DNA of 64,000 bases from a bacterium (lineage in GTDB: Bacteria > Oederibacteriota > CAKKQC01): positions 62,001 to 126,000 of the forward strand of contig CAKKQC010000042.1 in NCBI GenBank assembly GCA_919901855.1, read 5' to 3'. The notes beneath the pieces are model-generated. The model had not been told where the DNA came from and did no database searches. It saw only the letters and a list, made by a program, of their open reading frames with translations. Positions 9,781-56,939 of this stretch are shown piece by piece; position 1 is the first letter of the stretch, and every line of letters starts with the position of its first letter. A program made the translations under genes and the position numbers.

Positions 9781-10124
9781 CCGAACATCACCTCCAGTTG
9801 CCTTATCCTCGCCTCGATCAGCTCGATCACTCGCCGGGGCGTCTTGATGCCCTGCGTGGACTTCTTCTGGAACGCATGCACCACCCAGACATCCGTCCCA
9901 ATGCGAACCGCATACACGACCCGGAAGGCGTTCCCCCGGTGCGGCGATACGATCTCGAAGACGCCAGACCCGAGGCCCTTCATGGGCTTCGCCACATCGG
10001 CCTTGCCCCCTTCCGCCGCGATCGTCAGTGCGGTGAGACAGGCGGTCTGCACCCTCTCCGGGAACCCCTCGAATTCCCGGCGCGCCACCTTGACCCAAGA
10101 GATCGGTCGTGTGGTCTTAATCAT
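9777..10124 (-). CDS. RelE/ParE-superfamily toxin, phage Gp49-like (HigB type)
   Basis: This 115-residue toxin resembles the phage-derived Gp49 (PF05973) branch of the RelE/ParE superfamily, predicted to cut mRNA on the ribosome. The core is GSGVFEIVSPHRGNAFRVVY followed by VWVVHAFQKKSTQGIKTP, nearly the family consensus. The toxin precedes its antitoxin, as in higBA. A GAGG ribosome-binding site lies seven nt before the ATG, unlike most first genes here, which lack one; this fits horizontal acquisition. Confidence 0.85.
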   Translation of the reverse strand: MIKTTRPISWVKVARREFEGFPERVQTACLTALTIAAEGGKADVAKPMKGLGSGVFEIVSPHRGNAFRVVYAVRIGTDVWVVHAFQKKSTQGIKTPRRVIELIEARIRQLEVMFG

Positions 10125-10144
10125 CCGCTTACCTCAGCGATATG

Positions 10145-10170
10145 TTGTCACACATGACAACACCTTGTCA
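10145..10170. promoter_or_regulatory. Operator with three alternating half-sites at the toxin-antitoxin promoter
   Basis: On the plus strand TTGTCA (10145), TGACAA (10155) and TTGTCA (10165) occur at exact 10-bp steps, so two overlapping perfect inverted repeats share the middle half-site. The sites lie 20-46 bp upstream of the toxin ATG and overlap a perfect -35 TTGACA on the minus strand (10171-10166). Autorepression by the helix-turn-helix antitoxin is the natural reading. The -10 is unclear. Confidence 0.6.
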
Positions 10171-10171
10171 A

Positions 10172-10504
10172 TCTGAGCGAGTCCCATGGGGAACGGCCCC
10201 GGGGAGCCCCGAGCGAGTCTTCGAGGCGAGGGGTCAAAGGGCTGGCCCAGGCTTCCACTCTTCACAGCCCCGGGAATCTGAAGATCTTAACCACGTCCCC
10301 TCGTTCCGTTCTGGATCTCACCGCGTCGGAGGTGCTCGACCTGCTCACGGAACTCGGTTTGCCGTCCGCCCTCGGGTACGATGACTACCTCCAGGGATTC
10401 GCGAACCTGGATCGCGCGCGCCGGAAGCGACGCTGAGTTGATGCCCTAAGGTTGCCGGGACAGCCTCTGCCGAACCTTGCCGCCGAGACGGCGGTAACCC
10501 CGGC
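10172..10504. other. Gene-poor stretch between the toxin-antitoxin pair and the LeuA-family gene
   Basis: Apart from the operator just to its left, this stretch holds only one possible small coding remnant (10278-10436) and weak GC-rich hairpins, such as 10480-10495. I see no RNA gene. No clear rho-independent terminator is visible. Confidence 0.5.
10278..10436 (+). other. Possible small protein or gene remnant without a canonical start codon
   Basis: The plus frame ending at the TGA at 10434-10436 reads as a protein-like segment: VLDLTASEVLDLLTELG, then LPSALGYDDYLQGFANLD and a basic tail RARRKRR. It has helical periodicity and third-position GC bias, unlike random sequence. The frame contains no ATG, GTG or TTG; only CTG 10278 or ATC 10284 could begin it. 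It could be the 3' remnant of a gene truncated when the toxin-antitoxin pair inserted, or a small protein with an unusual start. I do not recognise the family. Confidence 0.25.
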
Positions 10505-30095: not shown

Positions 30096-31937
30096 ATGGA
30101 CCCGCGCCGACTTGGCCAGATTCTTGTGGCGGAGGGACTGATCGGGGACGACGAACTCGACCAGGCCCTGAAGGACAGCCGTGCGGGCGGGACCACCCTG
30201 CTCGAGAGCGTCGTCAAGCTGAAGTTGCTCGACGAGGAGACCATCGCCAACTTCCTCGGACACCAGTTCGGGCTCGAGGTCACGACAATCCCCGCGGACT
30301 TCAAGCCGAATCCGCAGGCCCGCGCCCTCATCCCGCCCGAACTGGCTCGCCGGTACCGGCTGGTCCCCTTAGCTGTCGACCGCACGACCCTCACAATCGC
30401 GGTCGAGAACCCGGGTGATGTCGAGGCGGCGGAGCAGCGGGACATTCGCCAGAAGTCCCGTATCCCGCCCGAGGCCGTCCTCAAACTCGTGGTAGCGCCT
30501 CTCTCGCAGGTCACCGCCGCGCTCGCCGCCATGTACCCCGCCGGCGCCGCCGGCAGCCGCGGCCACAACGGCCCGGGGAGCGGCGGCGAGATCACGACCA
30601 TGGACGCGGAGCAGTACGCCCTGCGTCACGCGCCGGCCAGGCAGGAAGTGACGCACGAGGACGTCACCGAGACTCTCGACCCCGAGGCCCTCCTGGCCCA
30701 GGCGAGCGAGAGCGTCGAGGTCACGTCCGCTGAGGGCGCGGGCGAGGAATACTCGATCGACGTCGCCAACGAGGAACCGGTCATGCGTATGTGCAACTAC
30801 CTCATCGCCGAAGCCTGCCGGCGCCGGGCCTCGGACATTCACATCAACCCGACGGCCCGGGGCATCACCGTCCGGTACCGCATCGACGGCGTGCTTCAGA
30901 TCATGCCGTCGCCCCCGCCCTCCATGAAGAAGGGCGTCATCGCCCGGTTCAAGGTCATGGCGAACATGAACATCACCGAGCGCCGCAAGCCGCAGGACGG
31001 CCGCATCAAAATCAAGGTCTATGACCGGACCATCGACCTGCGCGTCTCCGTCATCCCGCAGATGGACGGTGAGAACATCGTCATGCGGATCCTGGACCAG
31101 TCATCCCTCCAGCTCGACCTCAAGAAGCTGGGGTTCGAACCGCAGGAAATGGAGGTCTATGACACCGCGATCCGTTCGCCGTACGGCATGATCCTGCACA
31201 CGGGGCCCACCGGAAGCGGGAAGACGACCACGCTGTACTCGGCGTTGTCCTACATCTACGACCCCAAGCGGTCCTTCTGCACGCTCGAGGACCCCGTCGA
31301 GTACGAGATGCCCGGGGTCGTGCAGATCCAGATGGACCACGAAGTCGGACTCGACTTCGCCATCGCCCTGCGGAGCGCCCTCCGTCAGGACCCGAACGTC
31401 ATGATGGTCGGCGAGATACGCGACGGCGAGACGGCGGGTATCGCCGTGTCCGCGGCCCTCACGGGGCATCTGCTCTTCTCTACCCTGCACACGAACGACG
31501 CGCCCTCCACCATCGGACGTCTCGTGGACATGGGGGTGGAGCCGGCCTACGTCGGCACCGCCGTCCGCCTCATCGTGGCCCAGCGGCTGATGCGGCGGAC
31601 CTGTGCCGAGTGCAAGCAGGCCACGACGCCCACCGAAGAAGAGCTCAAGGTCACCGGCGTGAGCGAGGCGGAGGCCGCCGGTGGCACGTTCTTCAAGTCC
31701 ATCGGGTGCCCCAAATGCAGCATGACCGGGTACAAGGGACGGATCGGTATCTACGAGATGATGCGGAACACCCCCGAGCTTTCGGAGGCGATCTTCGCGG
31801 GCGCCGACTCGCTTGGGATCCGCGCCATCGCCGAGAGTCAGGGCATGCGTTCCCTCCGCGGTCTGGCCATCCAGAAGTGGAAGGACGGCATCACCACCAC
31901 CGAGGAAGTCCAGCGCGTGACGATGGGAGGCGACTAG
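30096..31937 (+). CDS. GspE/PilB-type secretion or pilus-assembly ATPase (first copy)
   Basis: This 613-residue AAA-like ATPase should power type IV pilus extension or type II secretion from the inner-membrane base. The N-terminal MshEN/GspE_N domain (residues 1-150) begins RRLGQILVAEGLIGDDELDQ; MshEN domains can bind cyclic di-GMP. An acidic linker follows. The motor has Walker A GPTGSGKTTT near residues 369-378, Asp box TLEDPVEYE, Walker B VGEIRDGETA, His box TLHTNDAPST and a zinc site CAEC...CPKC, all intact. A paralogue follows six bp later. The TAAGAT promoter is 15 nt upstream. The rest of the machine is probably at 46.5-56.4 kb. Confidence 0.92.
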   Translation: MDPRRLGQILVAEGLIGDDELDQALKDSRAGGTTLLESVVKLKLLDEETIANFLGHQFGLEVTTIPADFKPNPQARALIPPELARRYRLVPLAVDRTTLTIAVENPGDVEAAEQRDIRQKSRIPPEAVLKLVVAPLSQVTAALAAMYPAGAAGSRGHNGPGSGGEITTMDAEQYALRHAPARQEVTHEDVTETLDPEALLAQASESVEVTSAEGAGEEYSIDVANEEPVMRMCNYLIAEACRRRASDIHINPTARGITVRYRIDGVLQIMPSPPPSMKKGVIARFKVMANMNITERRKPQDGRIKIKVYDRTIDLRVSVIPQMDGENIVMRILDQSSLQLDLKKLGFEPQEMEVYDTAIRSPYGMILHTGPTGSGKTTTLYSALSYIYDPKRSFCTLEDPVEYEMPGVVQIQMDHEVGLDFAIALRSALRQDPNVMMVGEIRDGETAGIAVSAALTGHLLFSTLHTNDAPSTIGRLVDMGVEPAYVGTAVRLIVAQRLMRRTCAECKQATTPTEEELKVTGVSEAEAAGGTFFKSIGCPKCSMTGYKGRIGIYEMMRNTPELSEAIFAGADSLGIRAIAESQGMRSLRGLAIQKWKDGITTTEEVQRVTMGGD

Positions 31938-31943
31938 ACTCCC

Positions 31944-33752
31944 GTGGCCCTCAAGCGGCTCGGATCGCTCCTCGTCGAGGAAGCCCTCATCACGGAGGAA
32001 CAGCTCGCGGAGGCCCTCACTACCCAGAAGACGACCGGCGACCAGCTCGGCGAGGCACTCGTCAAGCTCGGGCACATCTCGGAAGAGTCCCTCTACCGTT
32101 TCCTGGCGATCCAACACGGTCTCGAGTTTATCGAACTCAATGGTACCGAGCTCTCGGCGGCCCTCATAAAGGTCATGCCGGCCGCCGTCGCCTGGAAATA
32201 CCGGGCCGTCCCGGTGTCGCAGGACGACCGCTCGATCACGCTCGCCACCTGCCAGCCGGACGAGCTCTCGCTGTTCTACCTCCCCAAGGAACTCAAGCTG
32301 CCTCCCGAGATCAAGCCCCGGATCGTGGTCGCTCCCGCCTCGGAGGTGCTGGCCCTCCTGAACGCGCATTTCCCCAAGGTGGCAGCCAGGCAGGAGGGCT
32401 CGATCCAGTCCGCGGAGGGGGCGGCGAAGATCGCTGCGGCGGCAGCCGCCGCCACGACCGCGGGGCCGGACCAGACCCAGGTCGACCTCCTCGCCGGCGT
32501 CGAGCAGGAACTCCTGAACCCGGATGATATCGACCTCGAGATCCTGCAGGAACAGAAGGAGGAAGCGGACGAGGGCGAGCAGTTCGACGAAGGCCCCATC
32601 ATCAAGCTCTGCGACTACATCATCGCCGACGCTGTCCGGCAACGGGCGTCGGACGTTCACATCACCCCATACGAGAAGGACATCGTGCTCCGGTACCGCA
32701 TCGACGGTTCGCTCATCAAGTTCCCGTCCCCGCCGGCAAGGATCCGGCGGCACCTGGCCACACGGTTCAAGATCCTTTCCAAGACCATGAACATCATCGA
32801 ACGGCGGCTCCCGCAGGACGGCCGCATTCACGTCAACGTGGGCGCCAAGACCGTGGACCTCCGGATTTCGACCATGCCCACGCGCTGGGGGGAGAACATC
32901 GTGATGCGGGTCATGGACCAGAGCGCGGGTATCCCCAAGCTAGAGGATCTGGGGCTGGAGGGTGACCAGCTCGAACACTTCATCAAGGCGATCAGCCAGC
33001 CCTACGGCATGGTGTTCGTGACCGGCCCCACGGCTTCCGGCAAGACCACGACGCTGTTCTCGGCCCTCCAGCACGTTAACACGCCTTCAAAGAACATCCT
33101 GACGGTCGAGGACCCGGTCGAGTTCCGCCTCCCGCATATCATCCAGATCATGGTCGACCAGAACGCGGGACGCACGTTCGGCTCGGTCCTGCGCGCCTTC
33201 CTGCGGCACGACCCGAACGTCATGCTCGTCGGCGAGACCCGTGATGCGGAGACCGCGTCCATCGCGAACAAGGCCGCGCTCACGGGCCACCTGGTCCTGA
33301 CATCCGTGCACACCAACGATGCCTGCTCCACGATCATGCGCCTCGTGGACCTCGGCATCGAACACGTGTACGTCGGATCTTCCGTGCTCGCGGTCACTTC
33401 CCAGCGCCTGCTCCGCAAGATATGTGACAAGTGCAAGGAGAAGATCGCGGTCCCGGCCGAGGAACTCGCCCGCATCGGCCTCAAGCCCGAGGACGTCGAG
33501 GGCAACGAGTTCTTCAAGGGCCGGGGCTGCGACAACTGCCACAAGACGGGATACCGCGGACGGCTCGGAGTTTTCGAGGTCATGCCCATCACGACGTCCA
33601 TCCGCGAGGTGATCTTCGCCAAGGGAAACTTGGCCCAGCTCAAGACCGCATCGCGCGAGGCCGGGTTCAAGACGATTCGGGACGCCGCCATCATCAAGTG
33701 GCGGAAGGGACTCACGACGCTGGAAGAAGTCCTCGGCGAAACCTACGAGTAG
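31944..33752 (+). CDS. GspE/PilB-type secretion or pilus-assembly ATPase (second copy)
   Basis: This 602-residue paralogue has the same order: MshEN-like N-terminus (KRLGSLLVEEALITEEQLAEAL), Ala-rich then acidic linker (AAKIAAAAAAATTAG), and motor with Walker A GPTASGKTTT, Asp box TVEDPVEFR, Walker B VGETRDAETA, His box SVHTNDACST and zinc site CDKC...CDNC. The P-loop has Ala where the first copy has Gly, a tolerated change. Start is GTG six bp after the first copy. Two tandem extension-type ATPases suggest hetero-oligomers or two related machines; neither looks like PilT, which lacks the MshEN domain. Confidence 0.92.
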   Translation: MALKRLGSLLVEEALITEEQLAEALTTQKTTGDQLGEALVKLGHISEESLYRFLAIQHGLEFIELNGTELSAALIKVMPAAVAWKYRAVPVSQDDRSITLATCQPDELSLFYLPKELKLPPEIKPRIVVAPASEVLALLNAHFPKVAARQEGSIQSAEGAAKIAAAAAAATTAGPDQTQVDLLAGVEQELLNPDDIDLEILQEQKEEADEGEQFDEGPIIKLCDYIIADAVRQRASDVHITPYEKDIVLRYRIDGSLIKFPSPPARIRRHLATRFKILSKTMNIIERRLPQDGRIHVNVGAKTVDLRISTMPTRWGENIVMRVMDQSAGIPKLEDLGLEGDQLEHFIKAISQPYGMVFVTGPTASGKTTTLFSALQHVNTPSKNILTVEDPVEFRLPHIIQIMVDQNAGRTFGSVLRAFLRHDPNVMLVGETRDAETASIANKAALTGHLVLTSVHTNDACSTIMRLVDLGIEHVYVGSSVLAVTSQRLLRKICDKCKEKIAVPAEELARIGLKPEDVEGNEFFKGRGCDNCHKTGYRGRLGVFEVMPITTSIREVIFAKGNLAQLKTASREAGFKTIRDAAIIKWRKGLTTLEEVLGETYE

Positions 33753-46479: not shown

Positions 46480-46488
46480 ACGGGTTTG

Positions 46489-46518: not shown

Positions 46519-48192
46519 GTGATCGGGGTCGGGATCGACCAGGGCCAGGCCTTCGTCAAGGGTGTCGCGGTCCAGTTGTTCGAGGACGGGAGCCTGTCGC
46601 TCCTCTCGGCCGTGATCGCCCCCACCGCGGACGTCAAGGCCAAACCCGATCTCGTCGGCGGCCCCATGGGCCGGCACCGGCCCGCGCCCTTCACGAAGCC
46701 GCCGGCCGTCGTAGCCACCTCGCACCCGGACGGCTACCTTGACCGCGTCCGGCTCCCGCTCGCCCCCGAGACCGGACCGATGTCGGACTACGACATCATC
46801 GCCTGGCTTCTCGAGGGCAAGATTCCGCCGCCCGCGGGCACGCAGGTCAAGGAAGACCTCTGGGATTTCCTGGGCCTCCACTACTTCCGGCGGTCCTCGG
46901 ATATCGAGACGCACGGCCGGAAGACGGCCGAGGGGCTGTTCACCCGGATCCCGCGGCCCGTGGCCGAGGCGGCCGCCTTCAAGTACGGCAAGCTCACGGA
47001 ACTCGGCCTTGAGCCGACGATCCTCGCGCTCCTGAACGTGTACCTGCGCCTGCTCCCTCCGGGCAAGGAGCAGGGCGGCCCGACCCTCCTGCTCGATATC
47101 GGCAGCTACCAGATCCAGGCCCTCCTCTTCGCCGACACCGGCCTGGTCCGGTCGATGTCGGCCTCGATGGGCGACCTACCGGGGCTCGTGGAACGGTCGG
47201 CACGGATCGAGCGGGCGCAGGTGCACCATCGCCTGCAGAACACGGACGTAGCCTCCTCGGATACGGTCAGCATCGCCATCAAGGACGCGATCGTGAAAAC
47301 CCTCCAGAAGGTGCAATCGTCGTTTTGGCCCGAGGGGACGACGAATCCCCGCCCGCACCGGGTACTCCTGTGCGGGGGCCTCTCCCAGTGCCGCGGCATG
47401 TCGCGCATCGTGAACACCGCGCTCGACGTGCCGACCGACATGCTGCACCAGCCGGAGTCCCTGCGGATCGTCGGCAACCTTCCGGCCCCGTATCCCGTGT
47501 TCGCCGGCGCCCTGGGGGCGGCGGTGCGGGCCGTGGGGTCGGCGCCGCTGCCGCTCCGCCCCCGCAAGCAGGTCCTGCAGACCCTGCCCAAGGGCTGGTC
47601 GTCACGCATCTCCTCGATGGCGCATCTGCCCCACGGGATCCACCTGCCGCCCGGCTTCGCCCTGCCCCAGATGCCGGGGCTAGCCCTCCCGGCCATGGCC
47701 GTTCCCGAGGAGGTCTCCCGGTTCGTCCGGACCTGGGACCACGCCCTGGCCTGGGTCAAGTCGCTCCGCCAGCTCCCGGCGAAGCTGGGCTGGGGCTGGA
47801 TCGGCGTGGGGGTGGCGGCCGTAATCGCCACGATCCCGACCTCGATCCTCCTGATCCGCCAGGGCTCGGCCTTCGCGAGCGCCCAAGCCGAAGTCGAGTT
47901 GCTCGAGCCGGACACCTCGGAGCTCGCCCGCGAAGCTGAGCTCATCCGGCAGTACGCGACGCTCACGGGCAGCGGGGCGCTGACCATCCTGCCGCTGGGC
48001 GAGGTGGTCGCCGAGATCGGGGCAAGAATGCCGGCCGGCACCTACCTCGCCAAGCTCACGGGCAGCCCGAACCAACTCGTCCTCCTCGGACGCGTGAAGG
48101 GGAACGCCGGCCTCAAGGTCAAGCAGATTTCCGAGTCCCTCGCAGCCGCGCCCGCCCTCCGCCGCGCGGGATACCGGCTGGAGGCGCCCTGA
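46519..48192 (+). CDS. GspL-like protein: PilM actin-like domain fused to TM and PilN-like domain
   Basis: This 557-residue protein combines the cytoplasmic actin-like platform of PilM with the membrane/periplasmic PilN unit, the layout of type II secretion GspL. The PilM part (about 1-350) shows IGVGIDQGQAFVKGVAV, GPTLLLDIGSYQIQALLF and VLLCGGLSQCRGMSRI. A Pro-rich linker leads to a transmembrane segment (about 423-447, WIGVGVAAVIATIPTSILLI) and a periplasmic ferredoxin-like end (MPAGTYLAKLTGSPNQLVLL). It would couple the ATPase to the envelope. GTG 46519 is chosen since MIGVGIDQG is the natural start. Next gene overlaps (TGATG). Confidence 0.82.
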   Translation: MIGVGIDQGQAFVKGVAVQLFEDGSLSLLSAVIAPTADVKAKPDLVGGPMGRHRPAPFTKPPAVVATSHPDGYLDRVRLPLAPETGPMSDYDIIAWLLEGKIPPPAGTQVKEDLWDFLGLHYFRRSSDIETHGRKTAEGLFTRIPRPVAEAAAFKYGKLTELGLEPTILALLNVYLRLLPPGKEQGGPTLLLDIGSYQIQALLFADTGLVRSMSASMGDLPGLVERSARIERAQVHHRLQNTDVASSDTVSIAIKDAIVKTLQKVQSSFWPEGTTNPRPHRVLLCGGLSQCRGMSRIVNTALDVPTDMLHQPESLRIVGNLPAPYPVFAGALGAAVRAVGSAPLPLRPRKQVLQTLPKGWSSRISSMAHLPHGIHLPPGFALPQMPGLALPAMAVPEEVSRFVRTWDHALAWVKSLRQLPAKLGWGWIGVGVAAVIATIPTSILLIRQGSAFASAQAEVELLEPDTSELAREAELIRQYATLTGSGALTILPLGEVVAEIGARMPAGTYLAKLTGSPNQLVLLGRVKGNAGLKVKQISESLAAAPALRRAGYRLEAP

Positions 48193-49259
48193 TGCCCCCG
48201 CCGGTCGCTCCCGGCGCCCCCGCCCCGGGGGCGACCCCGCGTCCGGCCGGGCCTCCCGGCGAACTGCGGCCCCGCGTCCAGCCGAAGAAGGCCGCCGTTG
48301 CGACGCCCCCGCCGGCCTGGCTCGTGCTCGCCGCGACGATCGCCCTCGCGGCCGAACTCCTGCTCGTCCTGGCCGTGATCGTGCGGGCGGGCCAGACGGT
48401 CAGCGCGCGGCGCGAGGCCCGCGCCCTCATGCAGGCCCAGGTGCAGGCCGACCAGATCCGCCGGGCCTGGGAGGAGCTGGCCGAACAGGGCGCCCTCCTC
48501 TACGCGCGGCTTTCCCGGCTCGACAAGGCGGCGGGCTCCCTCAAGGACCTCGAACGCGGGCTCCGGGACGCCGCCAAGTCCGCGGGGCTCACGGTCGAGA
48601 TCGCCGAAGCCCGGGGAACGAAGGTTGGCAAGAGCGTCAAGCGGGGCACGAAACTGGTCATCACGGGCTCCGGACCGGAGGGACGCGTGTTCGACTTCCT
48701 CCTTGGGGTGGACCGGCTCAACGCCATCATCCATATGGAGGAACTCCAGATGACGGGCACCACCGACAAGGGCGTCGTGTACCTCAAGCTCGGGATCGTC
48801 CACGACGAGCTCAAGGCACGCTACCGCGACCGGCTGAAGGCGCTGGTCGAGCAGCTGCCCCGGGTCGCCGGCGCCGCCCCCGGGGTGGGAGCTGTCCGGC
48901 GGGTGGAGAAGCTGTTCGTGCCCATGATCCTGCCCGACGAGGAGGCCCTGCGCGGATGGCCCCGGATCACGCTAAACGGGTTCACGTCGGACAAGGCGCT
49001 GTTCACGGTCAACGGCGAAGAGCACATGCTCTCGCTCGGGCAAACGATCACGGGCGACATCATCTACAGCGACAAGCCCGCGGTTAACCAGGCGATCCTG
49101 ACGCGCGGCCACGACCGGTCCGCCGTCATCCTCACCGTCGGGAGCCGCGACTACTCCATCGCGCCCGATGCCAACAACATCCGCAGCATGGTCCCGGTCA
49201 TGCTCACGATCCAGCGCTCGGGCATCAACGACCTGCTCAAGGCGGTGCTGCAGCCGTGA
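48192..49259 (+). CDS. PilO/GspM-like protein fused to a PilP/GspC-like periplasmic domain
   Basis: This 355-residue protein has a Pro-rich cytoplasmic start, one transmembrane segment (residues 42-65), a helical stretch and a PilO-like ferredoxin domain (about 110-215: VITGSGPEGRVFDFLLGVDR). A C-terminal domain (about 240-355) includes PRITLNGFTSDKALFTVNG and HMLSLGQTITGD. It resembles the PilP/GspC HR domain that touches the secretin N0 domain. One chain would thus link the inner-membrane platform to the outer-membrane pore. It is coupled on both sides (TGATG, GTGA). Domain calls are by pattern and not by alignment. Confidence 0.7.
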   Translation: MPPPVAPGAPAPGATPRPAGPPGELRPRVQPKKAAVATPPPAWLVLAATIALAAELLLVLAVIVRAGQTVSARREARALMQAQVQADQIRRAWEELAEQGALLYARLSRLDKAAGSLKDLERGLRDAAKSAGLTVEIAEARGTKVGKSVKRGTKLVITGSGPEGRVFDFLLGVDRLNAIIHMEELQMTGTTDKGVVYLKLGIVHDELKARYRDRLKALVEQLPRVAGAAPGVGAVRRVEKLFVPMILPDEEALRGWPRITLNGFTSDKALFTVNGEEHMLSLGQTITGDIIYSDKPAVNQAILTRGHDRSAVILTVGSRDYSIAPDANNIRSMVPVMLTIQRSGINDLLKAVLQP

Positions 49260-52030
49260 CGTCCGCCCTCGTCCTCGCCGGGGCGCTGCTCCTCGCCCGG
49301 CCGGGCGACGCCGCCGCTCCCCGGCTCCTCCCCGTCCAGAACGGGGACTTCGAGGAGGCGGAGGCGGGGGCAAACTTCCCCGCCGGTTGCTGGACCAACA
49401 AGAACAAGGGCGACATCTCGCTCATCACGAACGCCATGCACGGCCTCAAGGCCGTGCAGGTCAAGGCCGGGTGGGAATGGGCCTGCACCGACCTCAACAT
49501 TCCCTTCGGGTCCGCCAACGGCAACATGTTACTGCCCGAGGGCGAGGAGATCTCGATCGGCTGGTGGGTCAAGCTCGACGACGTCAAGAAGGGCTGGAAC
49601 GACTCCGATATCTGCCGGCTTTACGTCAAGTTCAAGACCAACGCGTGGGTGGAATCGACGGTCGAGCTGGCGAGGTTCGAAGGCACGGCGGGATGGAAGT
49701 GGATGACGAAGAAGAAGATCCTCGTGCCCGCGAACCTGAAGGAGGCCACGATCGTTCTGACATTCGACGGCGCCTCGCGCGGCGCGCTGTCCCTCGACCG
49801 GATCGTGGTCGCGAAGGGCACGGACCTGCCGCCCGAGACGATCACGACCGCGGACGAGATCGCCCTGGCGACGGACCAGGCCCGCGCCGCGATCGGACGC
49901 GCCCGCGCCGCCGCGCAGCGGGACACGGTCGAGGGCTCGGCCGGGGAGGCGCTCTCCGACGTCCGGGGCCGGGTGGACGCCGTCACCCTGCTCGCCAACG
50001 AACTCGAGGCGGAAGCCAAGGCCCTCGCCGCCAAGGCCGAACCCCGGAGCAACCTCCTCGAGCGCGCGGCGGACGCCGAGCGCTCGGTCGCCGTGGTCCG
50101 GACGAAGATCGCGGCCGCGATCGCGCTGATCGCCGAGGGCGAGGCCGCGCAGAAGCGGGAACCGACCCGGGCCAAGGCCGAGGAGGTATCCTCCGCCAAG
50201 GCCGCCGAGGCGCTCGCGATCCTGCGGGAAGCCGTCGCGGCGGCCGACCTGGCGGCGAACGCCATGACCGCGTCCATGATCCTGGCCGGCACGTGGGGCG
50301 GCGGCGTCTGGCGCATCACGGACGAGAACAAGTGGGTCGCGGCCAACGTGGACGCCCCCCGGCCCTACACGGCGTTCCTGACGGCCGCGCCGGACGGACG
50401 GCTCTACTGCGCCGGAGTCGAGGCCACCCTCCTCGACAGCGACGACAACGGCAAGACCTGGAGCGCGACGCCGACGCGGCTCCCGGCGCCCGCCACCGGG
50501 TTCGCGCTGAACCCCGGGGACCCCACGCACTGGCTCATCACGACCTGGGGGCGCGGCGTCTGGACCTCCGCGGACGAGGGCCGCAACTGGACCGAGGCGC
50601 CGGCGCCGTCGAAGTTCATGCGGAGCGGCCGGATCCTTAGGGCGACCCCGACCTCGCCCGCCCGGGTCTACGCCGTGGCGGACGGCACGACGATCGTGCG
50701 GGCCGAGACGTTCGGCGGCGAGTGGAAGGAGATCGCGCGGATGCCGCGCGGGATCGCGGCCTGGGACGTCGCGATGAAGCCGACGAAGCAGCCGGTGCTG
50801 CTCGCGGCGACCGACGCGGGGGTGGCCGAGATAGGCGACGACGGGAAGGTGGCTTTCCCCCGGCTCGAGGCGTCCTCGGCGTGGGCGCGCGCGATCGTCA
50901 CCGACCTCGACCGGGTCCTCATCGGCACCTACGGCGGCGGCATCGTCGAGTGGCGGCCGGTGACGACCGAGACCCCGAAGAGCCGCCGGATCAACGGGGA
51001 CCTCGGCAACCAGGTCGTGACCGCCATGGCGGGATCCCTGCACCCCAAGCCCGAGGTCACGGGGGAAGCCGACATCGTCGTCGGCCCCCGCATCTGGAGC
51101 GACCGCAGCACGGGACTGGCCGGCGCCAAGATCAACGGCATCACGTTCAACCCCCGGGACGAGAAGGTCATGTACTGCAGCACCAAGAGCGGGCTGTACC
51201 GGTCCAACGACGCGGGCGCCAACTGGTTCCTGTCGTCGACCGGTCTCAAGGCGCTCAACCTCGGCCGTATCATCGTGGACCCCAACACGCCGGAGAACAT
51301 CTACGTGGCCGCCGCCTTCCTCAACAACCCGGCCGGGATCCAGAAGAGCACGGACGCGGCCAAGAATTGGCTGCAGAAGAACAAGGGGCTGACCGCGCTC
51401 GCCGCCCTGTGGCTCGCGCTCAATCAGAGCAGCCCCGCCAACCTGATCGCGGTCACGTGGGGCAGCGGCTCGTTCATCACCTGGGACGGTGCCGAGACCT
51501 GGTACTCCATCGCGGGACCGACCCAGCAGAACGGCTACTGCGCCGCCTTCGGCGCCGCCAACTCCAGCGACGTCCTACTGGGCATGGCCGGACAGGTGTA
51601 CAAGCTCGCGGACTCGAAAGGATCGAAGGTCTGGGTGGCCTCGGGCAAGGGCATCCCGGGCCTCGACATCTGGAGCCTGGCCCAGGATCCCCGCGACGCC
51701 AAGGTCTGGCTGGCGGGCACGGCGGGCGGCGGGCTCTACAAGAGCACGGACGGGGCGGCCTCCTGGCGCCGGGTCAACAAGGGGCTGACCAGCATGGACA
51801 TCTACCGGATCGTCTACCACCCCGCCAAGCCGGGCGTCGTCTTCATCGGAACCAAGAACTCGAACACGGGACGCGGGGGCGACGGCGTCTTCCGGTCCGT
51901 GGACGGGGGCGAGAGCTGGGCCACGGATAACGAAGGCCTGTCCTCCTACGGCATCGAGGATCTGGCCGTGACCTCCAAGGGCCTCGTCTACCTGGCCACG
52001 CAGACCGGGGTCTTCTACAAGCAGGAATAG
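49256..52030 (+). CDS. Large secreted BNR/sortilin-like beta-propeller protein embedded in the secretion operon
   Basis: This 924-residue protein has a signal peptide (LVLAGALLLARPGDAAA). A CBM4/9-like jelly roll follows (about 25-180; VQNGDFEEAEAGANFPAGCW, then WMTKKKILVPANLKEATIVL), and then an Ala/Glu-rich helical segment (about 195-330). The long propeller (335-924) has repeated BNR/Asp-box units such as LDSDDNGKTWSA, TSADEGRNWTE, YRSNDAGANWFL, QKSTDAAKNWLQ, YKSTDGAASWRR and FRSVDGGESW. Such propellers bind proteins or glycans. Standing between PilO/P-like and secretin genes with a GTGA overlap, it is probably a structural or substrate part of the machine. No such subunit is known to me in standard systems. 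Confidence 0.75.
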   Translation: MTSALVLAGALLLARPGDAAAPRLLPVQNGDFEEAEAGANFPAGCWTNKNKGDISLITNAMHGLKAVQVKAGWEWACTDLNIPFGSANGNMLLPEGEEISIGWWVKLDDVKKGWNDSDICRLYVKFKTNAWVESTVELARFEGTAGWKWMTKKKILVPANLKEATIVLTFDGASRGALSLDRIVVAKGTDLPPETITTADEIALATDQARAAIGRARAAAQRDTVEGSAGEALSDVRGRVDAVTLLANELEAEAKALAAKAEPRSNLLERAADAERSVAVVRTKIAAAIALIAEGEAAQKREPTRAKAEEVSSAKAAEALAILREAVAAADLAANAMTASMILAGTWGGGVWRITDENKWVAANVDAPRPYTAFLTAAPDGRLYCAGVEATLLDSDDNGKTWSATPTRLPAPATGFALNPGDPTHWLITTWGRGVWTSADEGRNWTEAPAPSKFMRSGRILRATPTSPARVYAVADGTTIVRAETFGGEWKEIARMPRGIAAWDVAMKPTKQPVLLAATDAGVAEIGDDGKVAFPRLEASSAWARAIVTDLDRVLIGTYGGGIVEWRPVTTETPKSRRINGDLGNQVVTAMAGSLHPKPEVTGEADIVVGPRIWSDRSTGLAGAKINGITFNPRDEKVMYCSTKSGLYRSNDAGANWFLSSTGLKALNLGRIIVDPNTPENIYVAAAFLNNPAGIQKSTDAAKNWLQKNKGLTALAALWLALNQSSPANLIAVTWGSGSFITWDGAETWYSIAGPTQQNGYCAAFGAANSSDVLLGMAGQVYKLADSKGSKVWVASGKGIPGLDIWSLAQDPRDAKVWLAGTAGGGLYKSTDGAASWRRVNKGLTSMDIYRIVYHPAKPGVVFIGTKNSNTGRGGDGVFRSVDGGESWATDNEGLSSYGIEDLAVTSKGLVYLATQTGVFYKQE

Positions 52031-52049
52031 CCGGCGGGACTGTGGTAGG

Positions 52050-53675
52050 ATGAAGCCAACCTTGAGGGCGCCAGCGCTCCTGATCGCCGCCACGCTCGCT
52101 CTGGGCGCGAACGTGGCCCTCCTCCCGGCCGCACCCGTGCGGGCCGAAGGTCCCGAGGTCCAGGACTTCAACTTCTACAACACCGACCTGCACCTCGTCC
52201 TCAAGGCCCTCGCCGAGGTCACGGGGGTCACGTTCGTCGAGGACGTGCCGGTCTCCGGCAAGGTCACGGTCCACATCGGCAAGCGCACGGGGCTCGACGA
52301 GGTCCTCGAGACCGTCCTCAAGCCCCTGGGGCTCCAGTGGAAACCGGTCGGCAACGTCTACCACGTGGGATGGAAGGCGGGCGAGCGGCCTTCGGCGCTG
52401 AAACCCGGCTACGTCCAGCGCGTATTCCCGCTCAGGTACGTCTCGGCGGGCGAGGCCGCGCGCCAGCTCCGGAAGCTCCTGCGGGCGCAGGGGGTCGTGA
52501 GCGTGGACCGGGGCATGAACCAGGTCACGGTCACGCTCCCGCCCAACCTCGTGTCCAAGGTCGAGGACCTGATCAAGGGACTGGATATAGAGTCGAGCCG
52601 GCGGCTCGTGTCCATCCAGATCAAGATGCTCGAGATCGACCGGGACGTGGAACGGGAGACGCGCGCGTACCTCTCCTACAACAAGTACAACGCCTCGATG
52701 GGGCTAGCGAGCACGTACGCGGACACGCTCAACTACCACCGCTACGCGGACCGGGACTTCAGCGGCTGGAGCCCCACGAACGGCACGGGGAACATCGACG
52801 AGGCCCGGGCATACTACCCGTCCGCGTTCACCTACCGGGTGGGGGCGTGGGGCATCACCCAGGTCGTCGCGCGGCTCAAGCTCGAACTCACGGAAGACGC
52901 CATCAGGACCGTCACCGAGCCCGACGTCGTCGTCCTCGAGGGCCAGAAGGCCATCATCAAGATCGGCCAGAAGCTCTTCCTCCCCACCAACCAGTACCAG
53001 GACATCGGCGTCAACCTCACCATCACGCCCCAGATCGGCAAGGAAGGCCTCATCACGCTCGACGTGGCCGCCATCCTCACCCAGGCAGCCCTGACGCAGA
53101 GCAACAACGTCACCTCGAACAGCGACCTCGACAGCCGCGAGGTCACGACCAAGATCACGCTGCTGAACGGGGACACGGGCCGGCTGGGCGGGCTCCTCCG
53201 GCAGGAGGAGACGGACTCGATCTTCAAGATCCCGGTGCTCGGCGACCTGCCACTCATCGGGTTCCTGTTCCGCCGGACGAACCCGCAGACGATCCGCCGC
53301 GAACTGGTGATCCTGATCTCGCCGTCCGTGGTCGAGGACGTCCCGCCGCACGGGCGCCGGAGTCCCGGGATCAGCGGCCTCGTGGCGTGGCTCATTCCGG
53401 GCACCACAAGCGTCGTGCTCGACTGGTCCGAGGACGTGCCCGTGGACAACACCGGCATCTTCCAGTACCGGGTCTACCGCGACATCCGCCCTATCGTCTC
53501 GATCGCGCGGCTGACCCCCGTCGCGGACGCGGTGCCGCGGGCAGCGTCGTCGTGGGTGGACGAGACCCCCAAGCGGCGCGGAGTCACCTACTACTACGCC
53601 GTCATCGCCACGGACGGCGCGGGCAACGAACAGGCGGTGTCCAACAGCCCCGCCATCACGATCCCCAAGCGATGA
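52050..53675 (+). CDS. Secretin with C-terminal fibronectin-III-like domain (first copy)
   Basis: This 541-residue outer-membrane channel has a signal peptide (to about residue 32). An N0/STN domain follows (FNFYNTDLHLVLKALAEVTG, KVTVHIGKRTGLDEVLETVL), then one N1-like domain (RVFPLRYVSAGEAARQLRKLL). The secretin barrel has TVTEPDVVVLEGQKAIIKIG, IGVNLTITPQIG and the signature VPVLGDLPLIGFLFRR-type block (IPVLGDLPLIGFLFRRTN). After LVILISPSVVEDV, about 95 residues form an FN3-like unit ending in YYYAVIATDGAGNEQAVSNS. FN3 on a secretin is unusual. It is short, with few N domains. Confidence 0.86.
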   Translation: MKPTLRAPALLIAATLALGANVALLPAAPVRAEGPEVQDFNFYNTDLHLVLKALAEVTGVTFVEDVPVSGKVTVHIGKRTGLDEVLETVLKPLGLQWKPVGNVYHVGWKAGERPSALKPGYVQRVFPLRYVSAGEAARQLRKLLRAQGVVSVDRGMNQVTVTLPPNLVSKVEDLIKGLDIESSRRLVSIQIKMLEIDRDVERETRAYLSYNKYNASMGLASTYADTLNYHRYADRDFSGWSPTNGTGNIDEARAYYPSAFTYRVGAWGITQVVARLKLELTEDAIRTVTEPDVVVLEGQKAIIKIGQKLFLPTNQYQDIGVNLTITPQIGKEGLITLDVAAILTQAALTQSNNVTSNSDLDSREVTTKITLLNGDTGRLGGLLRQEETDSIFKIPVLGDLPLIGFLFRRTNPQTIRRELVILISPSVVEDVPPHGRRSPGISGLVAWLIPGTTSVVLDWSEDVPVDNTGIFQYRVYRDIRPIVSIARLTPVADAVPRAASSWVDETPKRRGVTYYYAVIATDGAGNEQAVSNSPAITIPKR

Positions 53676-55300
53676 ACGCACGACGGCTCGCTCCCGGCTT
53701 CATCCTCGCGTTCCTCGCGGCCGGACTCACGCCGGTGTTGACGGTTCCCGAGCCCGCCCGGGCGGAGGAGCCGAAGCTCGCCGACTACGTCGAGGAGCTC
53801 AACTTCTACAACACCGACCTGCACCTCGTGCTCAAGGCGCTCTCCGAACGGACGGGCTATCCCTTCGTCGAAGACATCCCCGTCGACGGGAAAGTGACTG
53901 TCCACATCTCCAAGAAGACGTCGATCGCGGAGGTGCTCGACCAGATTCTGCGCGGGCTCAACCTCTCGTGGACGCTCGACCGCGGCGTCTACCACGTCCA
54001 GCCCCGGAAGCCCGTCAAGGGCACGCCGCTGGGCCGCGGGCTCGTCGCCCGGACCTTCTCGCTCGAGACCATCGCGGCCGACGACGCCGCCGAGGCCGTG
54101 CGGCCCCTGCTCTCCGAGTTCGGGAAAGTGGCCGTGGACGGCGGGATGAACGCGCTGACGGTGACCGACGTGCCCGAGGTGCTCGATTCCGTCAAGAACA
54201 TCCTCGACGGGCTCGACGTCGAGGGCCGGCGCCCGGCCCAGATCAGCATCCAGACGAAGGTGCTCCAGATTCTGCGGCAGAACACCCTCAGATGGGGCGC
54301 CGTGGTCGAATGGGACAAGTACAACGCGATGGAGGGCATCGGCTCCCGCTTCCTCGCCGGCAACCTGAACAACGCGCCGGGCTGGGGGGAATCGGGCGGC
54401 ATGGGGTCCGCCAACGGCGCGTACCAGAACCAGGACGAGTACTACGCCTACTACCCCGACGCTTTCACGTTCAAGGTCGGCTCGTGGGGCATCGATCAGC
54501 TCGTGAGCCGGTTCTTCCTCGACAGCCGGGTATACAAGACGAACGTGCTCTCGGAACCCGACGTCACCGTGCTCAGCGACACCGAGGCGCGGATCATGGT
54601 CGGCGTCAAGGTTCCGCACGTCCTGAGCAGCGGCTTCCAATACGAGGACACGGGTGTCATCCTCAAGGTCAAGCCCTCCCTCGGCGATCAGGGCCGCATC
54701 TACATGGAACTCAACCCCGCCGTGACGGAAGCCCTCAATGGCCCGGACCTCCTGGCCAACCGCGAGGTCTCGATCAAGGTCGAGGTCGTCAGCGGGTCGA
54801 CCATCCGCATCGGCGGCCTCGTGGACTCCTGGAAGCACACGATCGAGCAGAAGGTGCCGGTGCTCGGCGACCTGCCCCTGCTCGGCTACCTCTTCAAGTG
54901 GTCTTACAACGCCGATTACAGGAACGAGATCGTCATCCTGGTCTCGCCGCACATCGTCGAGCACATCCCGCCCCGGTGCGCGGCGACGGCCGGAATCTCG
55001 GCCCTTTCCGCCAACCTCGTGGTCGGGACGACGGACGTCCTCCTCGATTGGTCCGAGGACGTGCCGTTCGATAACGTCGGCGTGGTGCGCTACCATGTGT
55101 ACCGGGATGTCCGGCCGATCATGAGCACGGCGAACCTGGTGCCGCTGACCCGCGAAGTCCGTGGCGACGTGACCTCGTGGGTGGACCTCACCCTCAAGCG
55201 CCGCGGCGTCACCTACTACTACGCGGTGACCGCCCTCGACGGCGCGGGCAACGAGGAGTCGGTCTCGAACAGCCCGTCGATCACGGTGCCGAAGCGATGA
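53672..55300 (+). CDS. Secretin with C-terminal fibronectin-III-like domain (second copy)
   Basis: This 542-residue paralogue of the preceding secretin has the same order: signal peptide, N0 (LNFYNTDLHLVLKALSERTG), N1-like (VARTFSLETIAADDAAEAVR), a secretin core (NVLSEPDVTVLSDTEARIMVG, VPVLGDLPLLGYLFKW), VILVSPHIVEHI and an FN3-like end (YYYAVTALDGAGNEESVSNS). Between the N and barrel regions both have a Tyr/Asn-rich stretch (EYYAYYPDAFTFKVGSWGI here). ATGA overlap with the first copy suggests equal production, so mixed rings or two separate pores are possible. Confidence 0.86.
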   Translation: MNARRLAPGFILAFLAAGLTPVLTVPEPARAEEPKLADYVEELNFYNTDLHLVLKALSERTGYPFVEDIPVDGKVTVHISKKTSIAEVLDQILRGLNLSWTLDRGVYHVQPRKPVKGTPLGRGLVARTFSLETIAADDAAEAVRPLLSEFGKVAVDGGMNALTVTDVPEVLDSVKNILDGLDVEGRRPAQISIQTKVLQILRQNTLRWGAVVEWDKYNAMEGIGSRFLAGNLNNAPGWGESGGMGSANGAYQNQDEYYAYYPDAFTFKVGSWGIDQLVSRFFLDSRVYKTNVLSEPDVTVLSDTEARIMVGVKVPHVLSSGFQYEDTGVILKVKPSLGDQGRIYMELNPAVTEALNGPDLLANREVSIKVEVVSGSTIRIGGLVDSWKHTIEQKVPVLGDLPLLGYLFKWSYNADYRNEIVILVSPHIVEHIPPRCAATAGISALSANLVVGTTDVLLDWSEDVPFDNVGVVRYHVYRDVRPIMSTANLVPLTREVRGDVTSWVDLTLKRRGVTYYYAVTALDGAGNEESVSNSPSITVPKR

Positions 55301-55872
55301 ACGCGCGCCGGCTGCTCCCCGCCGCGGCCCTCGGCCTGCTCGCCGTGTTGGTCACGGGTTGCCTGAACCCGTTCAACCCCACGGGAGACATCCGCCTGAT
55401 CCGGTGGTCCGCCAACGCGGGCGTCACCGCCCAGGTCACCCAGTCCCAAGCCGCCGGCACCCTGTTGGGGAAGGGCGAAGCCTGGGGCGTCCAGCGCACG
55501 TCCATGGTCATCGGCAACTTCAGCACCGTGGGCGTCCTGCTTACGAGCTACGTCGTCGTCTACCGCCAGATCGGCGCCCAGGACCCGCCCTTGTCCCTGC
55601 CGCCCGGCTCCCCGATCCCGGCCCTCGGCGGGGCGGGCGGACGCCGCTACCCGATCAACTTCCACGTGGCGCCCCTCGAGAACAACACGTACAACTATGC
55701 GGGTGACTTCGACTTGGTGCTCCGGCTGATCACGGGCGAGTTCCTTAACTACGTCGCGAACAGTCCGGGCACGCTGAACGGCGGGATCGACTGCGAGGTC
55801 GAGGTCTTCGGCGTGGATCACAACGGCCACGACGTCAAGGTCGTGGGCAGTCTGCACGTGGAGGTGTTCTGA
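55297..55872 (+). CDS. Lipoprotein after the secretins, possible pilotin (A)
   Basis: This 191-residue protein has a lipoprotein signal (LLAVLVTGCLNPFNPTGDIRL; lipobox LVTGC). The rest is beta-rich with GVLLTSYVVVYRQIG, NTYNYAGDFDLVLRLITG and CEVEVFGVDHNGHDVKVVGS. It overlaps secretin 2 (ATGA) and lipoprotein B (TGATG). The position suggests a pilotin that brings secretins to the outer membrane, or a partner of their FN3 domain; this is inference. Family unrecognised. Confidence 0.65.
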   Translation: MNARRLLPAAALGLLAVLVTGCLNPFNPTGDIRLIRWSANAGVTAQVTQSQAAGTLLGKGEAWGVQRTSMVIGNFSTVGVLLTSYVVVYRQIGAQDPPLSLPPGSPIPALGGAGGRRYPINFHVAPLENNTYNYAGDFDLVLRLITGEFLNYVANSPGTLNGGIDCEVEVFGVDHNGHDVKVVGSLHVEVF

Positions 55873-56426
55873 TGAACCGCACCTTCGCGCGCGTCGCGAT
55901 CGCGGCCGCCGTCCTCCTCGCCGCGGGCGGATGCCGGAACCCCTTCGACCCGTCCGCGGACATCGAACTGACGCGCCTGGAGGTGACTGGTAACGGTAGT
56001 TACGGCGGCACGTCGATCGTCATCTACCAGACGGAGCTGGCGGGTCCGACCTATGCATTCGGCGACTGGGTCGTGACCTGCCGCTTCACCTACAAGAACA
56101 AGGTCTCCGCCTACCTCAACAGCGTCACGATCACGTACACGGATATCGACGGCAACCCGGTGACGGCGTACAAGGCGGTCGGGGGCCGGACCTTCAAGAT
56201 TACGTTCCGCATTCCGGGCGTCCGGGACGACAACTTCTACTACGAGGGCGAGGGGATCGACAGCTCCCTCTCGCTTCGCGTCGTGGACCTCAAGGTCATC
56301 GAGGAGTTGAAGGCGCCGCCCCCGGGAAGCAAGGTCATCTTCGCGGACATCGTGCTGCGGGGCCAGGACGACAACGGCTACGATCTCCGACTGGAGGGCC
56401 GCATCGCCATCTTCGTATACCAGTAG
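55872..56426 (+). CDS. Lipoprotein after the secretins, possible pilotin (B)
   Basis: This 184-residue lipoprotein (lipobox LLAAGGC) begins its mature part CRNPFDPSADIELTRL, matching the other lipoprotein's CLNPFNPTGDIRLIR. The end, IVLRGQDDNGYDLRLEGRI, parallels FGVDHNGHDVKVVGSLHV. The two are thus diverged paralogues with an immunoglobulin- or jelly-roll-like beta body (FTYKNKVSAYLNSVTITYTD). It is the last gene of the operon; yajQ follows after 15 bp. Confidence 0.65.
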   Translation: MNRTFARVAIAAAVLLAAGGCRNPFDPSADIELTRLEVTGNGSYGGTSIVIYQTELAGPTYAFGDWVVTCRFTYKNKVSAYLNSVTITYTDIDGNPVTAYKAVGGRTFKITFRIPGVRDDNFYYEGEGIDSSLSLRVVDLKVIEELKAPPPGSKVIFADIVLRGQDDNGYDLRLEGRIAIFVYQ

Positions 56427-56441
56427 CGGCGACGCCCAGCC

Positions 56442-56939
56442 ATGCCCCAGGATTCCTCCTTCGATATCCGCTATACCCCGAACACGGCCGAAGTGGACAA
56501 CGCCTGGCAGCAGGCGCTGAAAGAACTAGCCCAGCGGTACGACTTCCGCGGCACCAAGACGACCCTCGAGCTGGACAAGAAGACCCTCACCTTCACCCTC
56601 CAGACCGAGGATGAGATGAAGCTCAAGAACCTGCGCGAGATCCTCGAGCGCCGCCTGTCCGGACGCGGCATCGCGCCACCGGCCCAGGTGCTGGGCACGA
56701 CGGAGCCCGCAGGCGGGGGCACGCTCCGGCAGACGCTCAAGGTCCAGCAGGGCCTGCCCGAGGACCGCATCCCCAAGATCACGGCCGCCGTCCGGGCGAC
56801 GGGTCTCAAGGTCCGGGCGCAGGTCCAGGGCGCCGAGATCCGCGTATTCGCCCGGGCGAGAGACGACCTGCAGGCCGTGATCGCCGCGCTCAAGCAGCAG
56901 AATTTCGGGTGCGCGCTCGACTTCGGCAACTACCGCTAG
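56442..56939 (+). CDS. YajQ-family nucleotide-binding protein
   Basis: This 165-residue YajQ-family protein has SSFDIRYTPNTAEVDNAWQQ (close to the SFDIVSE.D..EV.NA family start), LAQRYDFRGTKTTLELDKK, LKVQQGLPEDRIPKI and FARARDDLQAVIAALKQQNF. Members bind nucleotides; in Xanthomonas one binds cyclic di-GMP and steers transcription. Given MshEN-bearing ATPases here, a c-di-GMP link is possible but unproven. ATG start. Confidence 0.93.
   Translation: MPQDSSFDIRYTPNTAEVDNAWQQALKELAQRYDFRGTKTTLELDKKTLTFTLQTEDEMKLKNLREILERRLSGRGIAPPAQVLGTTEPAGGGTLRQTLKVQQGLPEDRIPKITAAVRATGLKVRAQVQGAEIRVFARARDDLQAVIAALKQQNFGCALDFGNYR

Follow-up and report, generated by a model that had tools for sequence, protein, structure and literature searches.

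Judged from their sequence, the seven genes at positions 46519-56426 of the window, the 64,000-nucleotide stretch of DNA analyzed here, encode, with a probability of about one half, a machine of the type II secretion/type IV pilus superfamily that is specific to this lineage. This machine would combine an inner-membrane platform, one or more secretin pores, pilotin-like lipoproteins, and a propeller cargo with the push of an endopilus built from genes elsewhere. In such an assembly, the two lipoproteins would act in a pilotin-like manner, one per secretin and probably via the secretin tail, while the propeller would be a folded periplasmic protein exported via the pore. The push would come from an endopilus whose motor, platform, and pilin genes lie at other sites in the genome (the ATPases E1 and E2, a PilC paralogue on contig C28, and orphan pilins), its parts being either copies of type IV pilus components or common to both machines. 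The features on which this reading is built are listed in Table 1.

Table 1. Genes and domains of the seven-gene locus and of the candidate motor (window positions).
Feature	Position	Strand	Basis or description
Gene 1, GspL-like PilM/N fusion	46519..48192 (alternative start 46486)	+	PilM-like actin-fold domain, one TM, ~110-aa periplasmic part
Gene 2, PilO/GspM-like inner-membrane protein with extra C-terminal part (PilP-like by pattern only)	48192..49259	+	Foldseek
Gene 3, exported BNR/Sortilin-type beta-propeller, 924 aa, signal peptide	49256..52030	+	Pfam Sortilin-Vps10
Gene 4, secretin S1: N0, N1, secretin domain, tail (tentatively Ig/FN3-like)	52050..53675	+	Pfam, alignment, tree
C-terminal tail of S1 (tentatively Ig/FN3-like)	53358..53675	+	Identity to tails of distant relatives
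Gene 5, secretin S2, tandem paralogue of S1	53672..55300	+	46% identical to S1
C-terminal tail of S2 (tentatively Ig/FN3-like)	54983..55300	+	
Gene 6, lipoprotein 1, lipobox VTGC, candidate pilotin-like secretin partner	55297..55872	+	
Gene 7, lipoprotein 2, lipobox AGGC, paralogue of lipoprotein 1	55872..56426	+	
ATPase E1, PilB/GspE-type, candidate motor	30096..31937	+	Pfam T2SSE 415 bits
ATPase E2, PilB/GspE-type with MshEN c-di-GMP domain, candidate motor	31944..33752	+	

All seven open reading frames lie on the same strand, display codon-position GC of the coding type, and are packed as tightly as originally described, with overlaps of 1-4 bp and a sole gap of 19 bp. The junctions can be read directly: TGATG at 48190-48194 between genes 1 and 2, GTGA at 49256 between gene 2 and the propeller, the 19-bp gap at 52031-52049 in front of S1, ATGA at 53672 between S1 and S2, ATGA at 55297 between S2 and lipoprotein 1, and TGATG at 55870-55874 between the lipoproteins. 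Gene 1 starts with GTG at 46519 or else with TTG at 46486. The inventory of two secretins, a propeller, and twin lipoproteins in the original prediction is confirmed by Pfam and by the paralogy of the two lipoproteins, which align over their whole length with E 6e-15. As that prediction also held, no prepilin, prepilin peptidase, PilC/GspF, or PilT is encoded among the open frames of the seven genes.

In Pfam, S1 and S2 show N0, N1, and secretin domains, and the secretin domain, with 116.7 and 108.1 bits, lies well above its cut-off of 27.5. As to a GspD-type secretin, their scores for TIGR02517, 168 and 152 bits, stay below its cut-off of 351. Both proteins end in a tail of ~105 aa, which is 38-43% identical to that of distant relatives compared with 33-35% for the whole protein. 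Ig/FN3-type models match this tail weakly, and we use the fold name Ig/FN3-like tentatively. The tree unites the tailed secretins in a single clade (100/99), separate from the PilQ and GspD of the phylum, and the duplication into S1 and S2 predates the split from the nearest genome. Membership of S1 and S2 in the genome's own pil system is ruled out by this separate clade and by a pil operon on another contig (C6), which has its own PilQ together with pilM-P. The two paralogues would form one or more outer-membrane pores, and the tailed secretins represent a little-described family of such pore proteins. A scan of a sequence collection with a narrow secretin alignment returned one named contig, from Candidatus Coatesbacteria isolate nzgw597, which is the contig of the nearest genome. 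It contains the end of the propeller gene, S1, and S2 in the order of the window, and then ends. Two families encode, as tandem pairs, proteins that combine secretin N-domains with an Ig tail of this kind but lack the secretin pore domain (L092:5206-7760, L093:641-3675, and L094).

A search with S1 across 45 genomes of the phylum revealed full-length relatives, tail included, in two other families. Gene order, which is kept in the nearest genome from the propeller end through S1 to S2, differs in these families, where a single secretin is the last of the machine genes in an operon of gspE (with an MshEN domain), gspF, gspG, two minor pseudopilins, the PilM/N fusion, the PilO-like fusion, and the secretin, usually followed by enolase. 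This operon is complete in genomes G003 and G018 and spread over two contigs each in G009 and G014. Since the examined genomes of both families also encode a pil operon and/or a classical type II secretion system (T2SS), the tailed-secretin operon constitutes a further machine. Moreover, because it contains gspE, gspF, gspG, and minor pseudopilins, the ancestral system was a machine of the type II secretion/type IV pilus family and not a pilin-free one. By this comparison, the lack of ATPase, GspF, and pilins at the window locus is derived. The lineage of the window has retained the two fusions and duplicated the secretin, and has neither a detectable GspG nor an orthologue of the operon GspF. 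The original view of a distinct secretin system stands as far as the separate clade and the separate pil operon are concerned; the missing parts as a mark of it are not supported.

The original prediction placed the alignment complex in two fusions, and two of its elements can be recognized. Neither gene 1 nor gene 2 matches a named family in Pfam or NCBIfam, and sequence searches of solved structures with both gave no match. However, profile comparison by hhalign aligns gene 1 end to end with the PilM part of the relatives' PilM/N fusions at E 1.6e-4, a value not reached in any of 60 shuffles. Its transmembrane segment lies at aa 428-446. The counterparts in the relatives match PilM_2 clearly and are PilN-like in their second half; this PilN part is undetected in the window's own gene 1. 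Gene 2 combines a single transmembrane segment with a PilO-like region, the latter being the middle part and the only confident one of a model made with four relatives. In Foldseek, this model is closest to the PilO of Myxococcus and Pseudomonas (3jc8_Oa, E 1.7e-5; 2rjz, 2.8e-5), followed by Amuc_1100. The relatives of gene 2 were equated by position, size, topology, and fold, as sequence alone does not show the relation. The predicted PilP-like element was not recovered, no search having detected any relation to PilP in the C-terminal part of gene 2 that might represent a PilP/GspC domain. As judged from profile and fold comparison, genes 1 and 2 are shown to resemble an inner-membrane assembly platform, the PilM-like fusion and the PilO/GspM fold taking the places of GspL and GspM. 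PilM- and PilO-like parts serve in filament assembly.

Candidate motor parts lie outside the locus. E1 and E2, 13 kb upstream of the seven genes, are also an adjacent pair in the nearest genome, and their top NCBIfam model is the PilB-like TIGR02538. On the tree, they fall with the PilB-like ATPase of C68 into a clade limited to the window's lineage (100/99), the base of which is unresolved; orthology with the operon GspE of the relatives is unsupported by this placement. E2 does not contain the usual GxxGxGK[ST] string, and its orthologue (L143:4273-6060) has GPTASGKT at Walker A. Beyond its own pil operon, the window genome encodes surplus PilB-type ATPases and PilC-type proteins, and the C28 protein, a paralogue that has diverged from the PilC of the pil operon, probably occurs in the nearest genome too. 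E1 and E2 may power the S1/S2 machine as candidate motors, and motor and platform could be borrowed.

Pilins and PilC paralogues are present elsewhere in the genome, but GspG and an operon-type GspF are not found. The model PF08334 (T2SSG), which finds the GspG of G003 and G018, gives nothing above cut-off in the window genome (G000) or the nearest genome (G001), and the tree places no orthologue of the operon GspF in either, while PilC-type proteins are plentiful. Since both assemblies are incomplete drafts (93% and 83%, respectively), missed genes are possible in each. These two absences and the position of E1/E2 apart from GspE speak against the endopilus step, which, lacking GspG and the operon GspF, rests on putative shared parts. 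Together with the missing pilin at the locus, the same absences would fit a reduced, pilin-free remnant, in which motor and pseudopilins have been lost and the platform and the doubled secretins persist as a static channel or anchor across the envelope. We consider this unlikely, as the PilM- and PilO-like filament-assembly parts are kept and pilins, PilC, and several PilB-type ATPases are encoded elsewhere in the genome. Rather unlikely, too, is a secretin machine whose own pseudopilus has been lost. In it, the two tailed paralogues would each have a lipoprotein dedicated to them, make up pores of their own or mixed ones, and use type IV pilus motors on demand or no filament.

A second type IV pilus, with the filament passing through S1/S2 and the propeller as a PilY1-like tip adhesin, would agree with the PilB-like ATPases, with the resemblance of the genome's pilins to major pilins, and with an orphan minor-pilin cluster on contig C21. 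We assign it a low probability, given that the relatives couple the secretin to a GspG-type pseudopilin, the propeller is not conserved, and the locus has no PilT. The first gene of the C21 cluster (L035:7608-11933) encodes 810 aa with a pilin-like start followed by carboxypeptidase-regulatory-like domains. In both genomes, the pil operon encodes only A24_N, the N-terminal half of prepilin peptidase (L105:6176-6502 and L025, about 9,950-10,240), and the peptidase half is not seen there. On contig C181 of the nearest genome (L174:325-2229), a PilC-like gene precedes a half-length GspE-type protein with the odd P-loop GIGGSGKANT. Contig C7 of the window genome contains an open frame of 1,679 aa (L036:6905-11944) that joins pilus platform and motor modules to a kinase: a kinase domain (E 6e-40), a WD40 propeller, T2SSF (E 4e-18), and the C-terminal half of T2SSE (E 5e-26). 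The open frame next to it carries a guanylate-cyclase domain. Three adjacent open frames on contig C40 of the window genome (L207-L211) span 10,753, 9,699, and at least 5,741 codons. Inspected by eye, the largest of them shows a signal-like start and, at its C-terminus, a FlgD-like end of the sorting type.

Searching first with the lipoprotein pair and then with a five-member alignment, we identified a family of five lipoproteins in the genomes of the phylum, comprising the window pair and one member in each of three genomes of another family. The latter lie directly 3' of a short untailed secretin, which itself follows a TIG-domain protein, and this three-gene cluster is conserved (L110:217-3664, L182:1157-4538, and L183:3177-6780). 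The window pair matches the other-family members with an hhalign E of 2.5e-7 (0/60 shuffles). A lipoprotein encoded beside a secretin, the arrangement sought as the mark of a pilotin, is therefore found for all five members, which are 3' neighbors of secretins (the window's second one following its twin) and come from two unrelated secretin loci; the window pair also has lipoboxes. The three other-family members are orthologues, so that the independent cases number two, and the majority of the phylum's other short secretins, which are Tad-like or of other types, have no such lipoprotein. The constant position 3' of secretins, the strongest indication in this analysis, suggests that the lipoproteins are pilotin-like secretin partners. 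Like the pilotins PulS/AspS, PilF/PilW, and MxiM, they are small lipoproteins encoded next to a secretin; unlike these, they show no detectable sequence relation, and searches of Pfam and NCBIfam matched no family, known pilotins included. Their structure model is unusable (pLDDT 35.5). Had the lipoproteins been unrelated variable genes, the idea of a single machine would have been undermined; instead, they recur behind secretins.

The propeller fares differently. Originally taken as a machine part, it proves to be a variable neighbor. It is of the Sortilin-Vps10/BNR type, matching Pfam Sortilin-Vps10 at 2e-18 and staying below the cut-off of NCBIfam NF045728. No propeller is encoded at the related secretin loci of G003, G018, G014, and G009, and its absence from most relatives counts against our preferred reading. 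In three relatives, unrelated propellers replace the window type: a PD40 propeller overlaps the secretin start in G026, and a weakly BNR_4-like protein is encoded 52 bp downstream in G034, with G036 arranged alike. Propellers of three types thus adjoin secretins of the tailed clade, and the classical T2SS of G018, too, has a Sortilin-type propeller upstream of its gspE. Such changing exported propellers beside a pore suggest that the propeller is likely cargo. Its absence in four relatives would suit a mixed operon, in which the propeller and perhaps the lipoproteins are co-transcribed with the secretins but unconnected with them in function, and tight packing alone proves little, as a YajQ-like (DUF520) gene (window 56442-56939) follows only 15 bp 3' of the seventh gene. 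We give this explanation little credence, because another family shows the same linkage of lipoprotein and secretin at a different secretin locus, and different propellers are again found adjacent to secretins. With the MshEN domains on E1/E2, the YajQ-like gene makes a c-di-GMP link conceivable.

Taken as a whole, the analysis delimits two families, secretins with a conserved tail and previously unrecognized lipoproteins encoded behind secretin genes, which together provide a candidate pilotin-client pair. The passage from a complete operon to a dispersed locus with a doubled secretin offers a natural series in which to ask what parts may be exchangeable between a type II-like machine and type IV pili.

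Among known systems, the type IVa pilus (PilMNOPQ, PilB, PilC) shares homologous alignment parts with the locus, and PilB-like ATPases are present in the window. In contrast to a type IVa system, where PilQ would be accompanied by PilMNOP and PilT, S1 and S2 fall outside the PilQ clade and the genome's pil operon is separate. A 'generic' type IV filament system is marked by ATPase, platform, and major pilin in one cluster (Denise et al., PMC6668835); such a cluster is present in G003, G018, and G009 and absent from the window locus. The pilus-like locus Amuc_1098-1101 of Akkermansia, compared for the PilM-like fusion and gene 2, resembles the system in that the relatives' fusion matches the Amuc_1101 family (E 3.9e-29), although for NF045709 a relative scores 101.9 bits against a cut-off of 650 and the window copy gives no match; gene 2 is like Amuc_1100 in fold. 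The T2SS (GspC-GspO) corresponds in its GspL-like PilM/N fusion, its GspM/PilO-like protein, and a GspD-like secretin with N0-N1, and, in the relatives only, in GspE, GspF, and GspG encoded in one operon. Unlike the T2SS, the window locus has a secretin tail, two secretins, and two lipoproteins, and it has no detected GspC and no motor, GspF platform, or pseudopilin. As neither GspC nor, across the genome, GspG was found, we do not claim T2SS membership, and infer from the anatomy that the window system is an exporter of the type II secretion/type IV pilus family.
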